Below are positions 713-6,479 of a stretch of 6,479 bases of DNA, in pieces (positions within the stretch are counted from its first letter, which is position 1; each line of letters opens with the position of its first letter). Both the position numbers and the translations under genes were made by a program. Source of the stretch: Holophagaceae bacterium (GTDB taxonomy: Bacteria; Acidobacteriota; Holophagae; Holophagales; Holophagaceae); NCBI GenBank assembly GCA_025353305.1, contig JANXQX010000197.1, positions 1-6,479 on the forward strand. The letters are read 5' to 3'. The notes beneath the pieces were generated by a model. It was not told where the DNA came from and did no database searches. It saw only the letters and a program-made list of their open reading frames with translations.

Positions 713-3145
713 ATGCGAATATTCAACCCCGTTCAAGCCGAGCTGGAGGCCCTGGAATTCCCGGACCTGCGGGAGTTGATTGGGCGCGGGGCGAGAACGC
801 TTGCCGGGCGCGCGGCCCTGGCCGCCATGCACCCATTCGATGGCCGGGCAAATCTGCGGCGCTTGCGGCAGATGGAGCTGGAACCGCTTTGGCGGCAGCG
901 GCCAGCGGACCTGCCAATCTCCAACCTGGACACCGCTTTTCAGGAATTGCTGAACCCCGCCGGATGGCTGCTTCCAGAACATTGGCGCAGTTTCCGGGAG
1001 GGTCTTCCGGCCTTGGCGCACCTGGTGCGATCCGTCGCGAGCCTGGTGTGGCCAGCGGATTTGATCGCGCCGGAAGGCGCTCATCCAGGCATTGACTGCC
1101 TGCAGGTCACCGCGACCCTGCTGCCGGACCCGACTCCCTTCGCCGAACGGTTCCGCCGCGTCTTCACCGAGGACGGCCTGCTGGATGCTCTCAAAGTACC
1201 GGGCCTTGCAGAGCTGCACAGCCTGCGCCAGCGGGCTTTCCAGTCGGTGCAAGCCAAGTTGAACAGGCTCCTCAGGGACCATGCGGAAGCGTTCCAGGAA
1301 GCTTCCATCGTGGAGCGCAATGGACGATTCTGCCTTCCCGTCCGCTCGGATCGCCGGGGGCAGATGGAGGGTCTGGTGCTGGACCGCTCCAACACTGGCG
1401 CCACTTTGTTTCTGGAGCCCATGAGCGTGGTGGCGCTCAACAACGAGTATGTGGAAGCTGACAGCAGGTACACACAAGCAGTCCAGGCCTTCCTGCGGCG
1501 CCTGTTGGAGGAGTTGCGCGAGCATCGCGAAGACTTCATGAGGTGGCGCGACTTCCAGGGTGAGGTCGATGAGATCATCGCGCTGCTGCGCTGGCAGAGC
1601 CTCTGCGCAGGCTCGCTGCCGGAGCTGAATGCCAAACGGCTGCATCTGGCCGTCGCCCGCCATCCACTGCTGCTGGCGAAGGTGCGGGAGGCCCTGGAGC
1701 TGGAACCGCTTGATCACGATGTGGTGCCGCTATCTCTCGAGCTGCACGATGGCTGTCCGGGGCTCGTGATCTCAGGCTCCAATACCGGCGGCAAAACCGT
1801 GGTGCTGAAGACCGTGGGTTTGCTGGCCTGCCTGGGTCATGCGGGTTGCGCCATCCCCGCCGAAAATGGAAGCACCCTGCCCCCGTTGCCGAGTTTGCAC
1901 GCCGATATTGGCGATCACCAGTCCCTGCTGGGCAGCCTCTCCACTTTTTCCAGCCATATAATCCACGTGAAGAATATCCTTCAGCATGCCAGGCCAGGCG
2001 GTCTGGTGCTGCTGGATGAATTGGGCACCGGCACCGATCCCAAAGAAGGCGCCGCTTTGGGCATCGCCATCCTCCAGGCCCTGAGCCGCCGCGGCGCATG
2101 GGTGCTTTGTTCCACCCATCTTGGCGAGATCAGCCGGTGGGCCCTTTCCAATGCGCGCTTCCAGAATGCATCGGTGCAGTTCGACGAAGAAAAACTCGCC
2201 CCCACCTACCACCTGATGGTGGGTCTGCCGGGCCAGAGCCGCGCCCTGTCCATCGCCAGGCGCCTGGGCCTGCCACCGCAGGTCCTGGACCACGCGAACC
2301 AGGTCCTGGGCCGGCGGGAAAAGGACTGGCGCGAATTCCTCCAAAAACTCGAGTCGGATCGTCTGCGGGTTCTGCAACTCGAATCCGAATTGCATACGGG
2401 CCAGCAGCTCCTGGAAAAGGACCGCCGAATCCTGCAGCAGCGCGAAGAGCACCTGCGCGAATCGCATGAAAAGGCCCAACGCGAAGGCACCGAAAAAGTG
2501 GAACGCGTGCTGGATTTCCTGGACCACGAAGGCAAGCGCCTGGTGAAAGAACTGAAATCGAAAGCCAGGCTTTCAGAAAACGCCGACCGCTTGGGCATGG
2601 AGACCAACGAACGCGTGAAGCTGCTCACGAAGATCTCCGGTTCTGAGCTGAAGTCCATGGTCCACAAACCCAATCCCACAAAGGATCTTCCAGGCCTGAA
2701 GCTGGATGGATTCGCCCGCCACCGGGGCCTGGGACTGGAAGGCCGCATCACTGCCATCAAGGGCGATCGCGTGACCCTGGAAGTGGCTCCCGGCAAACGG
2801 TTCGAGGCCCGGGCTGGCGAGCTCGATCCCCTGCATCGCAAGGATCTTGAAACGCCTAAAGCGCTGGAAGGCAGGGTGCGTGTCCGCGTGGATGGCAGCG
2901 ACGCCATGGAAGAACTGAACCTCATCGGCCGCGCCAGCGACGATGTGGATTCCGAAGTCCACCGCTTCGTGGAAAGCGCCCTCGCAGGGGGCCGCCTCCA
3001 TATCCGGATCGTCCACGGCCATGGCACCGGAAGGCTGAAAAGTTCCGTGCGCCTGGCGTTGCAAGGCCACCCCGGCATCAAGCACATCGAGGACGCCCCC
3101 TTGAGCCAAGGCGGCGCCGGAGCGACACTGGTCACACTCAGGTGA
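713..3145 (+). CDS. mutS2: MutS2-family ATPase with C-terminal Smr domain
   Basis: The 810-residue protein is about the usual MutS2 length and lacks the mismatch-recognition domain of MutS. The N-terminal region (about 1-310) contains the family block RNGRFCLPVRSDRRG...GATLFLEP at 202-236. The ATPase follows, with Walker A GSNTGGKT (355-362), signature GSLSTFSSH (407-415), Walker B LVLLDE (431-436), D-loop LGTGTDP and switch His469 in STH. A charged coiled coil spans about 535-640, a KOW-like segment about 668-712 and the Smr domain about 730-810 with HGHGTG at 768-773. The Smr front motif, normally LDxRG or LDxHG, is LNLIG at 735-739. Family members are known to suppress recombination or to split collided ribosomes; which applies here is not visible. 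An in-frame TAA at 695-697 makes 713 the earliest start, and no Shine-Dalgarno precedes it. No terminator follows the stop. Confidence 0.95.
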   Translation: MRIFNPVQAELEALEFPDLRELIGRGARTLAGRAALAAMHPFDGRANLRRLRQMELEPLWRQRPADLPISNLDTAFQELLNPAGWLLPEHWRSFREGLPALAHLVRSVASLVWPADLIAPEGAHPGIDCLQVTATLLPDPTPFAERFRRVFTEDGLLDALKVPGLAELHSLRQRAFQSVQAKLNRLLRDHAEAFQEASIVERNGRFCLPVRSDRRGQMEGLVLDRSNTGATLFLEPMSVVALNNEYVEADSRYTQAVQAFLRRLLEELREHREDFMRWRDFQGEVDEIIALLRWQSLCAGSLPELNAKRLHLAVARHPLLLAKVREALELEPLDHDVVPLSLELHDGCPGLVISGSNTGGKTVVLKTVGLLACLGHAGCAIPAENGSTLPPLPSLHADIGDHQSLLGSLSTFSSHIIHVKNILQHARPGGLVLLDELGTGTDPKEGAALGIAILQALSRRGAWVLCSTHLGEISRWALSNARFQNASVQFDEEKLAPTYHLMVGLPGQSRALSIARRLGLPPQVLDHANQVLGRREKDWREFLQKLESDRLRVLQLESELHTGQQLLEKDRRILQQREEHLRESHEKAQREGTEKVERVLDFLDHEGKRLVKELKSKARLSENADRLGMETNERVKLLTKISGSELKSMVHKPNPTKDLPGLKLDGFARHRGLGLEGRITAIKGDRVTLEVAPGKRFEARAGELDPLHRKDLETPKALEGRVRVRVDGSDAMEELNLIGRASDDVDSEVHRFVESALAGGRLHIRIVHGHGTGRLKSSVRLALQGHPGIKHIEDAPLSQGGAGATLVTLR

Positions 3146-3188
3146 GCGGTTTACATGCCCAGCTCTTTCCCATGAAACCCGTCACACC

Positions 3189-3197
3189 TGCCACAAT
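3189..3197 (+). promoter_or_regulatory. Weak candidate extended -10 element before the SRPBCC gene
   Basis: TGCCACAAT at 3189-3197 fits the extended -10 pattern TGn followed by a hexamer matching TATAAT at four of six positions. No good -35 box lies 17-18 bases upstream. The gap after mutS2 is only 78 bases and holds no terminator, so read-through from mutS2 is an equally good explanation for expression of the next gene. Confidence 0.22.
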
Positions 3198-3223
3198 CGG
3201 AAATCTTAAACAGGAAGGCTTTC

Positions 3224-3649
3224 ATGACCTCCATCGCCACCGACACAGCTGCCCTTGCCCTGCCCGCAGAGAAGTTATTCACGTTTCTCGCGGACCTTTC
3301 CAACCACCGGGCCTTCCTGGAACCTGAGGCGAAGGATTTCAGCGGCGACTCGGATACCCACCGCTACAAGATCGAAGTGATGGGCATGACCATGCCCGTG
3401 GAAGCGGTCATCGGCGAAAAGGTTTCACCTACACTCGTCACGCTGGTGCCCGGCGCAAAAAAAATGTTCGATCACACCCTGCGTTTCGAGATCACGCCGA
3501 GCGGCGGGGAATGCCACCTGCGGATCGTGGACGAAGCCGACCTGCCGGCGATGATGAAGATGATGGGCGCCGAGAAACTGCTGAAGGCACAGCTGGACAG
3601 CGCCCTGGTGAAGATCCAGGACTTGGCGAAGGCAGGCAAGCTGGGGTGA
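3224..3649 (+). CDS. Small SRPBCC/START-like (Bet v1 fold) protein
   Basis: The 141-residue product looks like a single-domain SRPBCC protein, a fold with a deep cavity for hydrophobic ligands. Visible features fit: an N-terminal strand, the helix ALPAEKLFTFLADLSNHRAFL (about 11-31) typical of the family's first helices, alternating strands through the middle (RYKIEVMGMTMPVEAVIGEKV, TLRFEITPS, CHLRIVDEAD), and a long C-terminal helix (about 108-138) rich in Met and Leu. There is no signal peptide or membrane segment, so it is probably cytoplasmic. The ATG at 3224 has AGGAAGG at 3212-3218 with a five-base spacer, one of the best ribosome binding sites in the window. It follows mutS2 by 78 bases without a terminator and may share its transcript. 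The ligand or reaction cannot be read from the sequence. An eight-base A tract (3457-3464) lies inside the gene. Confidence 0.82.
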   Translation: MTSIATDTAALALPAEKLFTFLADLSNHRAFLEPEAKDFSGDSDTHRYKIEVMGMTMPVEAVIGEKVSPTLVTLVPGAKKMFDHTLRFEITPSGGECHLRIVDEADLPAMMKMMGAEKLLKAQLDSALVKIQDLAKAGKLG

Positions 3650-3666
3650 AATAATCCAAAGTTACT

Positions 3667-3686
3667 GGTCCACTGTCTTGTGGGCC
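3667..3686 (+). terminator. Weak hairpin after the SRPBCC gene
   Basis: GGTCCAC (3667-3673) can pair with GTGGGCC (3680-3686) around a six-base loop, giving seven pairs, one of them G-U. No T-run follows, so it is not a convincing intrinsic terminator. It is the only clear hairpin I found between 3650 and the next gene; the rest of 3650-3765 shows no gene or clear promoter. Confidence 0.25.
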
Positions 3687-3765
3687 CACTCCGTACCTTG
3701 CGATATGAGGCCAAGTTCCCTTCGGGCACCATCCATTCGTTCAAGGCATGATGAAGGCACACACT

Positions 3766-3778
3766 GGAGCCTTCGATT
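3766..3778 (+). promoter_or_regulatory. Ribosome binding site and ATT start codon of the first DUF4139 gene
   Basis: GGAG at 3766-3769, six bases, then ATT at 3776-3778. The next gene has the same arrangement: AGGAG (5487-5491), five bases, ATG at 5497. Translation from the ATT gives MRALSLALTASLLLPAQ, which lines up with MRIPTLALALAALPLCAQ of the neighbour. The reading frame is open only from 3755 (TGA at 3752-3754), and it contains no ATG, GTG or TTG before 3899. A second possibility is CTG at 3764, preceded by GAAGG at 3753-3757 with a six-base spacer. The ATT fits better because the two proteins then align from residue 1. Confidence 0.6.
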
Positions 3779-5443
3779 CGCGCCCTCTCTCTTGCCCTAA
3801 CGGCTTCCCTGCTTCTGCCCGCCCAGGCACCTGAAATCCGAAGCAACGCCAAGGATCGCAGCAATCTGTCCCTCACTATCTACCAGGATGGTTGGGCAAT
3901 GGTGCAGGACACGCGCCGCGTAGACCTACCCAAAGGCCCATCCCGCCTAGCTTTCGCGGATGTGGCCGCACAGATGAACCCACGAACGGCGCTGCTTCAT
4001 GCCATGCAACAAAACGATGACACTCGCCTGGGTGAACGGAATTTTGAATTCGAACTCATCACCCAGGGCACCCTCTTGACGAAGTCATTCGGTACCAAAG
4101 TGCGGATGAAGGTTCCAAATTCGGATGAGAACGGCATCACCCTTGATCCCGTTGAAGGCACCCTAGCTTCACTGCCTCAAACCGATTTATGGTCACCCCT
4201 CCCCACCGTCTGGACCCGCCAGTTTCTTGGGCTCCACAAACGGGAATTGGTGCAAAAAGAAGGCCCCTTCCACTATCGCCTTGCCAAGGCGGAGCCGAAC
4301 GTGCTCGTGCAAACTCCAGAAGGGCTGAGTACAACCAAGCCCGGTGAGGTTGCGCTTACGAAGATGCCGCTTGACCTGCGCGCCCAGCCCACCCTGGTGC
4401 AGGATCTGGTAAGCCCGACGGGAGGCCCGCGGGACTTGGAACTGGCCTATCTCACACAAGGCCTGAACTGGTCTTCCCACTACGTGGCCACTCTCGACAG
4501 CGACCTGCAGCAAATGGACCTGGATTGCTTCGTGACCGTTGAAAATAAAAGCGGCGTGGCTTTCGAGCGGGCGAAGATTTCACTACTTGCGGGGGAAGTG
4601 AATCGAGTGGCAGAATCCAATCCCTTTGAAGATGAAGATGAATCACTCTCCACAGCAGCAGTCGTCGTAGCGGTAGTGGCGACGCCACCCACTTTCAGTG
4701 AGCAACAGCTCCTGGACTACCACCTTTTCACATGGAGCGCACCAACAACCCTGAAGCAGAATCAGGAGAAACAACTTTTGCTGTTTTCGGCGCGTCGCAT
4801 TCCTTTGAATCCTCTGATTCAGGTTGCCCTGGAACTGGATGCGGCGGAGAACCATGCCAGGGATTACGAGAAAGGCCAATCAATTCCTGTATGGCTTACT
4901 GCTTTGTTCAAGAACACAGCGGCCTCCAATCTGGGACGCCCCCTCCCCTATGGAATCGTGGCGGCGGTCTACCGCACCCATGAAGGCCTCGCTTTCCCCC
5001 TTCCAGAAGAACTTTTCTTGGATTCAGTATCCAAGGGGGAAGACGCCACCTTGAATCTGGGAATCGCTCACGGGTTAACAGCAAATTTGTTTCATCTCGA
5101 ATCTCGGAAAGAAACGCGGTTGGAAATTGTTAACCGTATAAAAGGACCCCTCGCCAAGGTCTTTCTGCAGTCAATCTTCACCCGGAAAACCTTTGAGGAA
5201 GCGGCCGGGCCCTACGAAGGAATTGACCGGCCAGGCACGATCGCCACATATCGATTGGATCTCGTCAACGACTTATCCCGATCAAAGCAAATGGAGCTGT
5301 TAATTCAAATGTTGGAGGGCATGCGGCTGCTCCGCGCGGATGCTCCCCATGAAAAACGGGACGCTAATTCTGAACTCGCCAAAGTACTCCTGCCCGCCCA
5401 TTCAGAAACTTCCCTCACCCTTCAAGTTTGGCGGCCCAACTAG
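3776..5443 (+). CDS. Exported DUF4139-family protein, first of a tandem pair, with non-standard start
   Basis: From the ATT the product is 555 residues; a caller restricted to usual starts would begin at 3899 (514 residues) and lose the signal peptide and the first conserved strand. Residues 1-19 form a signal peptide (MR, hydrophobic core, ending PAQA). LSLTIYQDGWAMVQDTRRVDLPKG then matches SLAVTIYNENLALVKDTREVRLPKG in the next gene. Further shared blocks are RAxPTLV, LELxYLTxGLxW and AGxVNR. The C-terminal half contains FKNTAASNLGRPLPYG, typical of DUF4139. Compared with its neighbour it carries about 38 extra residues between NFEFEL and RAQPTL (roughly residues 129-171). It also has an acidic patch FEDEDES followed by a hydrophobic STAAVVVAVVA run. 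Its codon choice is visibly less GC-biased. Relatives are annotated DUF4139 or mucoidy-inhibitor-like; the function is unknown. The stop is TAG at 5441-5443, and 53 bases without a terminator lead to the paralogue. Confidence 0.8.
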   Translation: MRALSLALTASLLLPAQAPEIRSNAKDRSNLSLTIYQDGWAMVQDTRRVDLPKGPSRLAFADVAAQMNPRTALLHAMQQNDDTRLGERNFEFELITQGTLLTKSFGTKVRMKVPNSDENGITLDPVEGTLASLPQTDLWSPLPTVWTRQFLGLHKRELVQKEGPFHYRLAKAEPNVLVQTPEGLSTTKPGEVALTKMPLDLRAQPTLVQDLVSPTGGPRDLELAYLTQGLNWSSHYVATLDSDLQQMDLDCFVTVENKSGVAFERAKISLLAGEVNRVAESNPFEDEDESLSTAAVVVAVVATPPTFSEQQLLDYHLFTWSAPTTLKQNQEKQLLLFSARRIPLNPLIQVALELDAAENHARDYEKGQSIPVWLTALFKNTAASNLGRPLPYGIVAAVYRTHEGLAFPLPEELFLDSVSKGEDATLNLGIAHGLTANLFHLESRKETRLEIVNRIKGPLAKVFLQSIFTRKTFEEAAGPYEGIDRPGTIATYRLDLVNDLSRSKQMELLIQMLEGMRLLRADAPHEKRDANSELAKVLLPAHSETSLTLQVWRPN

Positions 5444-5496
5444 GTCTGCCTTTGCTTCAGTTTCCCTTCACCCCCACCCTAATCCCAGGAGTCCCC

Positions 5497-6479
5497 ATGC
5501 GCATCCCCACTCTCGCCCTCGCCTTGGCCGCGCTACCGCTTTGCGCGCAGTTGAAGGAGATTCCCACGACCCAAAGGGACCAGCAGTCCCTTGCCGTCAC
5601 CATCTACAACGAGAATCTGGCGCTCGTGAAGGACACCCGCGAAGTGCGGCTGCCCAAGGGCGAGGTGGCGCTGGCCTTTCAGGAAGTCTCGGCGCAGATC
5701 AGGCCCGAGACCGCGCTGCTGCGCGATATCACGCACCCTGATGGGTTCTGGGTCGCCGAACAGAATTTCGATTTCGATTTGCTCACTCCGCAAAAGCTGC
5801 TCGATAAATATGTCGGCGAGAAAGTCGGCGTCATCACGACGCAACGCGAAGAAAATGGCAAGCTCACCGAGAAACGCGAGGAAGCCCTGGTGCTGGCCAC
5901 CAACAGCGGCACGGTATTGCAATTCCCCGACCGCATCGAGACCAGCTACGTGGGGCGTATCGTCTTCCCAAAAGTGCCGGAGAACCTGCGGGCACGGCCC
6001 ACGCTGGTGATCTCCCTGAACTCCCCCGTGGCCGCCGCGCAGAAGCTGGAACTCAGCTACCTCACGGGCGGCTTGGCCTGGCGGGCGGACTACGTGGCGA
6101 ACCTGGCTTCGGACGAAAAGACCATGGATCTGAGCGGCTGGGTGACCCTCACCAACACCAGCGGCGTGGCCTATCCCAATGCGACCCTGCAACTGGTGGC
6201 GGGGGACGTGAATCGGGCGCCAGCCCCACGGGCCGCCTACAAGAACGGCGGAGCCATGAGGGCGGACATGGCGCCCGCGCCTCCGCCGCAGATGCAGGAG
6301 GAAAACCTCTTCGAATACCATCTCTACACGCTGGACCGGCCCACCACCATCAAGGCGGCCCAGACCAAGCAGGTGGCCCTGCTCAGCGCCTCCAGCATCC
6401 CGGTGCGGAAGGAATACCTGTTACGCGGCGAGAGCTATTACTACCAGGGGAGCTATGGCGAGATCGGCGCGAAATTGAA
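5497..6479 (+). CDS. Exported DUF4139-family protein, second of the pair, partial at right edge
   Basis: The frame is open from ATG at 5497 to the last base: 327 complete codons, with the C-terminus missing. AGGAG at 5487-5491 with a five-base spacer marks the start. MRIPTLALALAALPLCA is a signal peptide, probably cut after Ala17. The Cys is not in a good lipobox, so a lipoprotein is unlikely. The mature protein begins with strands SLAVTIYNENLALVKDTREV (31-50), continues through RARPTLV and LELSYLTGGLAWRADYV (184-200), and reaches AGDVNR. A Pro/Ala/Met-rich linker (MAPAPPPQM) follows, then EYHLYTLDRPTTIKA. These are the N-terminal and early DUF4139 segments of the family; the C-terminal part lies outside the window. 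It is clearly paralogous to the gene just upstream but shows stronger GC-ending codon bias. The family sits outside the cytoplasm; its biochemical role is not known to me. A GTG or ATG downstream would lose the signal peptide, so the chosen start is well supported. Confidence 0.88.
   Translation, partial: MRIPTLALALAALPLCAQLKEIPTTQRDQQSLAVTIYNENLALVKDTREVRLPKGEVALAFQEVSAQIRPETALLRDITHPDGFWVAEQNFDFDLLTPQKLLDKYVGEKVGVITTQREENGKLTEKREEALVLATNSGTVLQFPDRIETSYVGRIVFPKVPENLRARPTLVISLNSPVAAAQKLELSYLTGGLAWRADYVANLASDEKTMDLSGWVTLTNTSGVAYPNATLQLVAGDVNRAPAPRAAYKNGGAMRADMAPAPPPQMQEENLFEYHLYTLDRPTTIKAAQTKQVALLSASSIPVRKEYLLRGESYYYQGSYGEIGAKL

Follow-up and report, generated by a model that had tools for sequence, protein, structure and literature searches.

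The window, i.e., the whole stretch of 6,479 nucleotides that was analysed, contained, in this order, rpsU (S21), mutS2, a gene coding for an SRPBCC protein, and two DUF4139-like genes, referred to below as gene 1 and gene 2 (Table 1). An Rfam scan of the window gave no matches at gathering score. Gene 1 resembles the MuiA/DUF4139 proteins in its remote sequence match and in having a tandem paralogue of the same family, but it is a remote relative only, scoring below the curated cut-offs of both Pfam DUF4139 (PF13598; E value of 6e-4, 19.9 of 31.8 bits) and MuiA (TIGR02231; 18.6 of 112.6 bits). Several gene 1 homologues carry a PF13598 annotation in the database. The SRPBCC protein matched NCBIfam NF047960 (Rv0910 family) weakly, with 26.1 of 100 bits, far under the cut-off, and this family name is not transferable to it. 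The SRPBCC gene and mutS2 are neighbours in the window (3145-3224), the gap between them being about 2.3 kb in genome G056 and about 5 kb in genome G059; in Geothrix G001, they sit on separate contigs.

Table 1. Coordinates of the genes and start-region features in the window.
Feature	Position	Strand	Remarks
SRPBCC (Polyketide_cyc2-like) gene	3224..3649	+	Also precedes gene 1 or gene 2 in relatives
Leader block	3719..3778	+	Common to the window and the leader of DUF4139 gene 2 in G056-G060
Predicted hairpin	3745..3784	+	Inner stem GAAGGC 3753-3758 / GCCTTC 3769-3774
ATGATG	3748..3753	+	Out of frame with gene 1; ATG 3751 to ATT 3776, 25 nt
CTG, alternative in-frame non-AUG start	3764..3766	+	AAGG 3754-3757 at a 6-nt spacer
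GGAG, Shine-Dalgarno (SD) core	3766..3769	+	6 nt from ATT; invariant in six aligned leaders
ATT, proposed start codon	3776..3778	+	Spacer CCTTCG 3770-3775 before, CGC after
Gene 1, predicted DUF4139-like exported protein	3776..5443	+	From ATT 3776, 555 codons plus stop
Gene 1 signal peptide, (M)RALSLALTASLLLPAQA		+	Judged by eye
ATG, first canonical start	3899..3901	+	
AGGAG, gene 2's own SD	5487-5491	+	
Gene 2, DUF4139 paralogue	5497..6479	+	ATG start; cut by the window end

The stop-to-stop frame of gene 1 (3755-5443; 562 codons; N-terminal reading RHTLEPSIRALSLALTASLLLPAQAPEIR) contains no internal stop, and ATG 3899 is its first ATG, GTG or TTG codon, as claimed in an earlier note on this DNA, every checked coordinate of which proved right. 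Initiation at 3899 leaves the signal peptide and the first conserved strand out of the product; that both are encoded ahead of this codon was confirmed by reading and alignment. The ATT codon reported at 3776, preceded by GGAG at a six-base spacer, is indeed present, and gene 1 read from it aligns, as had been stated, with gene 2 from the first residue of the latter (ATG 5497). An in-frame ATG codon occurs in the signal-peptide interval of 90 of the 93 DUF4139 5' regions considered (fetched loci and the window, a few of which may be one gene counted from two overlapping loci); the three exceptions are two loci cut by a contig end (L113 and L089) and gene 1 of the window. The lack of an in-frame ATG codon in the latter is more than chance. 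An ORF of 27 codons runs from the ATG at 3751 to a stop at 3832-3834. A +1 frameshift from this ORF into gene 1 was considered and rejected, as the ORF product up to the stop at 3834 would displace the hydrophobic signal peptide.

Relatives were reached via two loci of Geothrix, which belongs to the Holophagales (Acidobacteriota), and 77 genomes of this order were searched. Based on mutS2 DNA, the nearest genomes were G059 (86%), G056 (82%), G060 (81%), G057 (78%), and G058 (76%). A leader of the form GCATNATGAAGGCA....GGAGCCTTC stands ahead of a DUF4139 gene in five of the 77 genomes. The leader pattern GCATNATGAAGGCANNNNCYGGAGCC occurred exactly, without mismatches, once in each of G056-G060 and in none of the others among the 77 genomes, and with two mismatches once each in G040, G041, G049, and G068; its reversed control gave no matches in the 77 genomes. 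The gene behind the leader is gene 2 itself in G059, G060, G057, and G058; in G056, the leader shares a contig with the first 50 codons of gene 2, and the remainder of the gene is on another. The codon aligned with ATT 3776 is ATG in G059, G060, G056, and G058 and AGG in G057. Following GGAGCCTTC, the sequence reads C-ATG in G059, G060, and G056, C-AGG in G057, ATGATG in G058, and G-ATT in the window. The distance from the leader ATG to the start ATG is 25 nt in G059, G060, and G056, as it is to the ATT codon of the window. G059 and G060 have a second ATG codon 31 nt from the leader ATG, and G057 has one at this same distance, two codons past AGG, while G058 displays two adjacent ATG codons, 24 and 27 nt from a leader ATG that is itself in frame with the gene.

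As judged from this DNA alignment, ATT 3776 occupies the place of the start ATG. An ancestral ATG, proposed earlier from the paralogue, thereby gains support beyond the paralogue, since four of the five related leaders have ATG at this codon. Caution is needed, as a deletion fusing the leader to gene 2 in the relatives could have supplied gene 2's own ATG; the identical spacing suggests that leader and gene 2 are joined in register. The one-base insertion that had been put forward as separating ATG ATG 3748 from the gene 1 frame probably does not apply to the window, as the stretch from the leader ATG through GGAGCCTTC spans 24 nt there and in all five relatives.

The leader contains an inverted repeat, GAAGGC/GCCTTC, that is invariant in the six leaders and encloses a loop of 10 nt in the window and the five relatives; in the predicted hairpin, GGA lies in the loop and the start codon in the 3' arm. 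In G058 (L084, minus strand, near 4282-4307), a perfect 15-bp hairpin was found (MFE of -27.3, z-score of -5.55). The fold of the window was not better than that of shuffled sequences (z-scores of -1.34 for 61 nt and -0.06 for 100 nt), and those of the remaining leaders were not clearly better (z-scores of -0.8 to +0.4). According to the predictions, G059 and G057 favour other folds, and the A and U of AUU are unpaired in the window, the start region being largely paired in G060, G056, and G058. The inverted repeat may represent a translational hairpin or a DNA operator and is a lead only; the invariant stem gives no covariation, and an operator in the DNA would have the same appearance.

Protein searches, including an N-terminal one, gave five close relatives of gene 1 (P0003-P0007), in none of which Met is predicted at the 3776 codon. 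P0006 (565 aa, 69%; reading MKALTLEFSIRAFIFGLTASLLLPAQ) is the only close orthologue that reads through this codon and has Ile there (TLEFS-I-RAF). It begins with MKALTLEFSI, which fits the leader ATG-AAG-GCA and needs 27 nt versus the 25 nt of the window. Judging from its protein sequence only, the predicted start of P0006 appears to be the upstream ATG of the leader, put in frame by 2 additional nt, and its Ile may have arisen afterwards, once the codon was internal. A simple 2-nt deletion after ATG 3751 in the window, as an explanation of this difference, became improbable, as the G056-G060 leaders show the spacing of the window to be usual. P0003 (five members on two contigs) differs from the window in one residue out of 514 and is also called only from the ATG at 3899, which speaks against a sequencing error at 3776. 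The call for P0005 lies at the position matching 3899, that for P0004 within the hydrophobic signal core, and that for P0007 further downstream; P0003-P0005 and P0007 could represent improbable internal start calls or cut contigs. P0004 has a mosaic structure: two 80-column windows in the N-terminal part match P0005 without a difference, and the C-terminal half resembles the window at 94-97% for most of its length, a pattern that may reflect recombination or an assembly chimera. P0007 shares more with P0004 (74.5%) than with the window (69.2%).

More distant relatives of gene 1 (P0008-P0014, P0030-P0032, P0066, and P0067) start with Met at or near the 3776 codon; the N-terminal search returned eight proteins, and the two additional ones among them, P0066 and P0067, show about 50% similarity and have MR as their first residues. 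A contig search with P0001 and a search of viral contigs yielded 70 and 52 pattern stretches, respectively, none of which was confirmed, and a class-level genome search with P0006 (E value of 1e-60) yielded three of 93 genomes, all of them already in the order-level search. The comparison of first codons recommended in the earlier note returned ATG in four leaders and AGG in one, besides Ile in P0006, the latter being perhaps started upstream. Because Met is predicted in none of the five orthologues and P0006 has Ile, the ATG codon was probably lost before the species of the window and that of P0006 split, with 555 codons kept open. Hence, the loss that had been ascribed to this copy may predate this genome.

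With P0006 as a query, 70 of the 77 Holophagales genomes gave a match at an E value of 1e-3, many of them through gene 2, compared with 71 for gene 2 as a query. Among the matches listed, a separate gene 1 lies upstream of gene 2 in G001, G002, G022, G034, G054, and G066, and a gene 1-like copy occurs on a separate contig in G065; all seven 5' regions have ATG at the signal peptide. Gene 1 was not found among the matches listed for the five nearest genomes (G056-G060). G061 (L013) and G063 (L086) have a gene 1 frame of 79 aa directly upstream of gene 2, apparently remnants of a lost tandem copy. Gene 1 is dispensable and looks like an old, often lost tandem partner of gene 2. An extra, diverged DUF4139 copy was present downstream of gene 2 in G058 (L084, reverse-complement coordinates 3223-4695).

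Between the window and P0004, 68 of 544 residues differ, with a mean BLOSUM62 score of 0.01, compared with -0.49 (standard deviation of 0.22) in a neutral simulation, the latter figure being taken from the stop-free runs (3.9% of 1500). These replacements are milder than neutral. When 30 neutral replacements were simulated (substitutions alone), 24% of the runs were stop-free, so that, when the branch is short, little can be concluded from an intact frame. The changes on the window and P0004 branches numbered 23 and 15 with P0006 as outgroup (mean BLOSUM62 scores of 0.30 versus 1.20), 33 and 8 with P0007 (-0.03 versus 1.50), and 16 and 4 when both outgroups agreed (0.38 versus 2.25). The window branch looks to change faster and less conservatively than that of P0004, a comparison that is uncertain because P0004 is a mosaic and P0007 is closer to P0004. 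The GC3 of gene 1 is 0.60 versus 0.83 for gene 2; because gene 1 is likewise 0.15-0.17 under gene 2 in G001, G002, and G054, part of this low GC3 seems to be a trait of the family, tied to weak expression.

The gene infC was found in four of six relatives searched (L118, L119, L120, and L121). The IF3 N-terminus follows ATC in G057, G058, and G060 and ATT in Geothrix G001, each behind a GGAGG SD. As counted by eye, G001 and G060 have no in-frame ATG, GTG or TTG from the upstream stop to the ATC or ATT codon, and in G057 and G058 the sole canonical option is a TTG codon 22 codons further up. Hence, ATC or ATT appears to be the start codon of infC in these relatives, judging from the frames and from infC of other bacteria (PMC5472188). 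Because infC appears to have such a start in four of the six relatives, AUH initiation is plausible for gene 1.

From the open frame, the spacing, the ATG codons of the relatives, the absence of a canonical start, and the Ile of P0006, we infer, with somewhat more confidence than doubt, that gene 1 would use a functional but weak AUU start at 3776, perhaps an IF3-sensitive one. Gene 1 would then be an intact, exported DUF4139-family gene of low expression, in which AUU replaced the ancestral AUG, probably before the species of the window and that of P0006 separated. GGAG, six bases upstream, would position the ribosomes and fMet-tRNA would initiate inefficiently at AUU 3776, yielding (f)MRALSLALTASLLLPAQA as the signal peptide. 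IF3 should keep the yield well under that of an AUG start, as for infC and other AUH-started genes, and the yield of gene 1 could respond to the level of IF3. The short SD (GGAG), the dispensability of gene 1, the faster window branch, and the Met of the distant relatives count against this reading. In a more elaborate version, considered rather doubtful, the AUU start would be clade-specific and long kept in the 3' arm of a conserved, SD-displaying hairpin, IF3 and folding together setting the yield, and P0006 would have escaped via the upstream ATG.

Unlikely, but to be taken seriously, is the loss of the start, whereby the ATG codon mutated and gene 1 is in early decay, producing no signal peptide and either a nonexported fragment from 3899 or nothing. 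It fits the five nearest genomes, in which gene 1 was not found among the matches listed, the 79-aa frames of G061 and G063, the downstream call of P0007, the faster and less conservative change of the window branch, and G057, in which the codon at this place is non-ATG as well, though an ATG stands two codons on. Against such decay, 555 codons are open, the replacements are milder than neutral, and the lack of Met at the codon is common to P0006, the frame of which is intact. P0006 itself inspires an improbable alternative, according to which an ancestor gained 2 nt and thereby the leader ATG (3751) as a start, the former start codon, now internal, drifted to Ile, and the copy in the window subsequently lost 2 nt from the CACACA tract (a real deletion or a sequencing error), which cut the frame off from its ATG. 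The match of the P0006 N-terminus with the leader, the CA run at that very spot in the window, and the in-frame leader ATG of G058 agree with this history, yet it requires one extra indel, P0003-P0005 are not called from the upstream ATG either, and the constancy of the 24-nt stretch and the 10-nt loop in the window and the five relatives makes the window look unchanged there and P0006 derived. Initiation at CTG 3764, four codons upstream of ATT and behind the SD AAGG (3754-3757), is very improbable. Of this option, also raised in the earlier note, the reading frame and the 6-nt spacing held up, and Leu-Glu is kept at the same place in P0006; however, the corresponding triplet is CCG in four of the five relatives, where it belongs to the leader ahead of ATG, and the extension would lengthen the signal peptide by residues that include Glu but none of positive charge.

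Gene finders generally accept only ATG, GTG, and TTG as starts. The AUU start of gene 1, if used, would escape standard gene finders, by which infC of these Holophagales relatives would be missed or shifted. Given the ATG in the relatives and the apparent capture of a new ATG in P0006, one could follow within a single gene what a rare start costs and what becomes of it. As a suggested rule, orthologue groups that are all called from improbable internal starts may be candidates for AUH initiation. According to PMC5472188, experimental characterisation exists for very few noncanonical start codons of bacteria.

Among known systems, infC (IF3) has an AUU or AUC start and is subject to autocontrol by IF3 (PMC5472188). 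Gene 1 resembles infC in having an AUH codon behind an SD where AUG would be, but the SD of infC (GGAGG) is stronger and its feedback has a clear logic, whereas gene 1 has no known link to IF3. The E. coli gene pcnB is said, in work by Binns and Masters of 2002, to have an AUU start; it would be similar as a non-IF3 gene limited by such a start, and it differs in its product and in that its start was shown by experiment. In S. aureus, PMC13009471 describes AUH starts for cvfC1 (AUU) and ccpN (AUA), with extended SDs and initiation-arrest profiling data, the AUU of cvfC1 yielding about 10% of AUG in a reporter in poor medium. Gene 1 would share with these an AUH start outside infC, kept across species there and possibly in gene 1, but it has a four-base SD, and its AUU start is a prediction from sequence. 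Similarly, sigR of Streptomyces has a GTC start repressed by IF3 (PMC5472188); this rare start codon too shifts annotation to a nearby canonical start, whereas the codon is GTC, the gene codes for a regulator, and genetics has been done. According to both sources (PMC13009471 and PMC5472188), the S. aureus and Streptomyces starts are real and of lower yield, and the Streptomyces one was misannotated. Like AUH-started bacterial genes of the infC, pcnB, and cvfC1 type, gene 1 has no canonical start before its conserved N-terminus and has an SD at the proper distance (GGAG, 6 nt), and stops inside the frame, as expected of a pseudogene, are absent. Its GGAG falls short of an extended strong SD, including the GGAGG of the relatives' infC, although such an extension, typical of these S. 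aureus cases, may not define all AUH-started genes.
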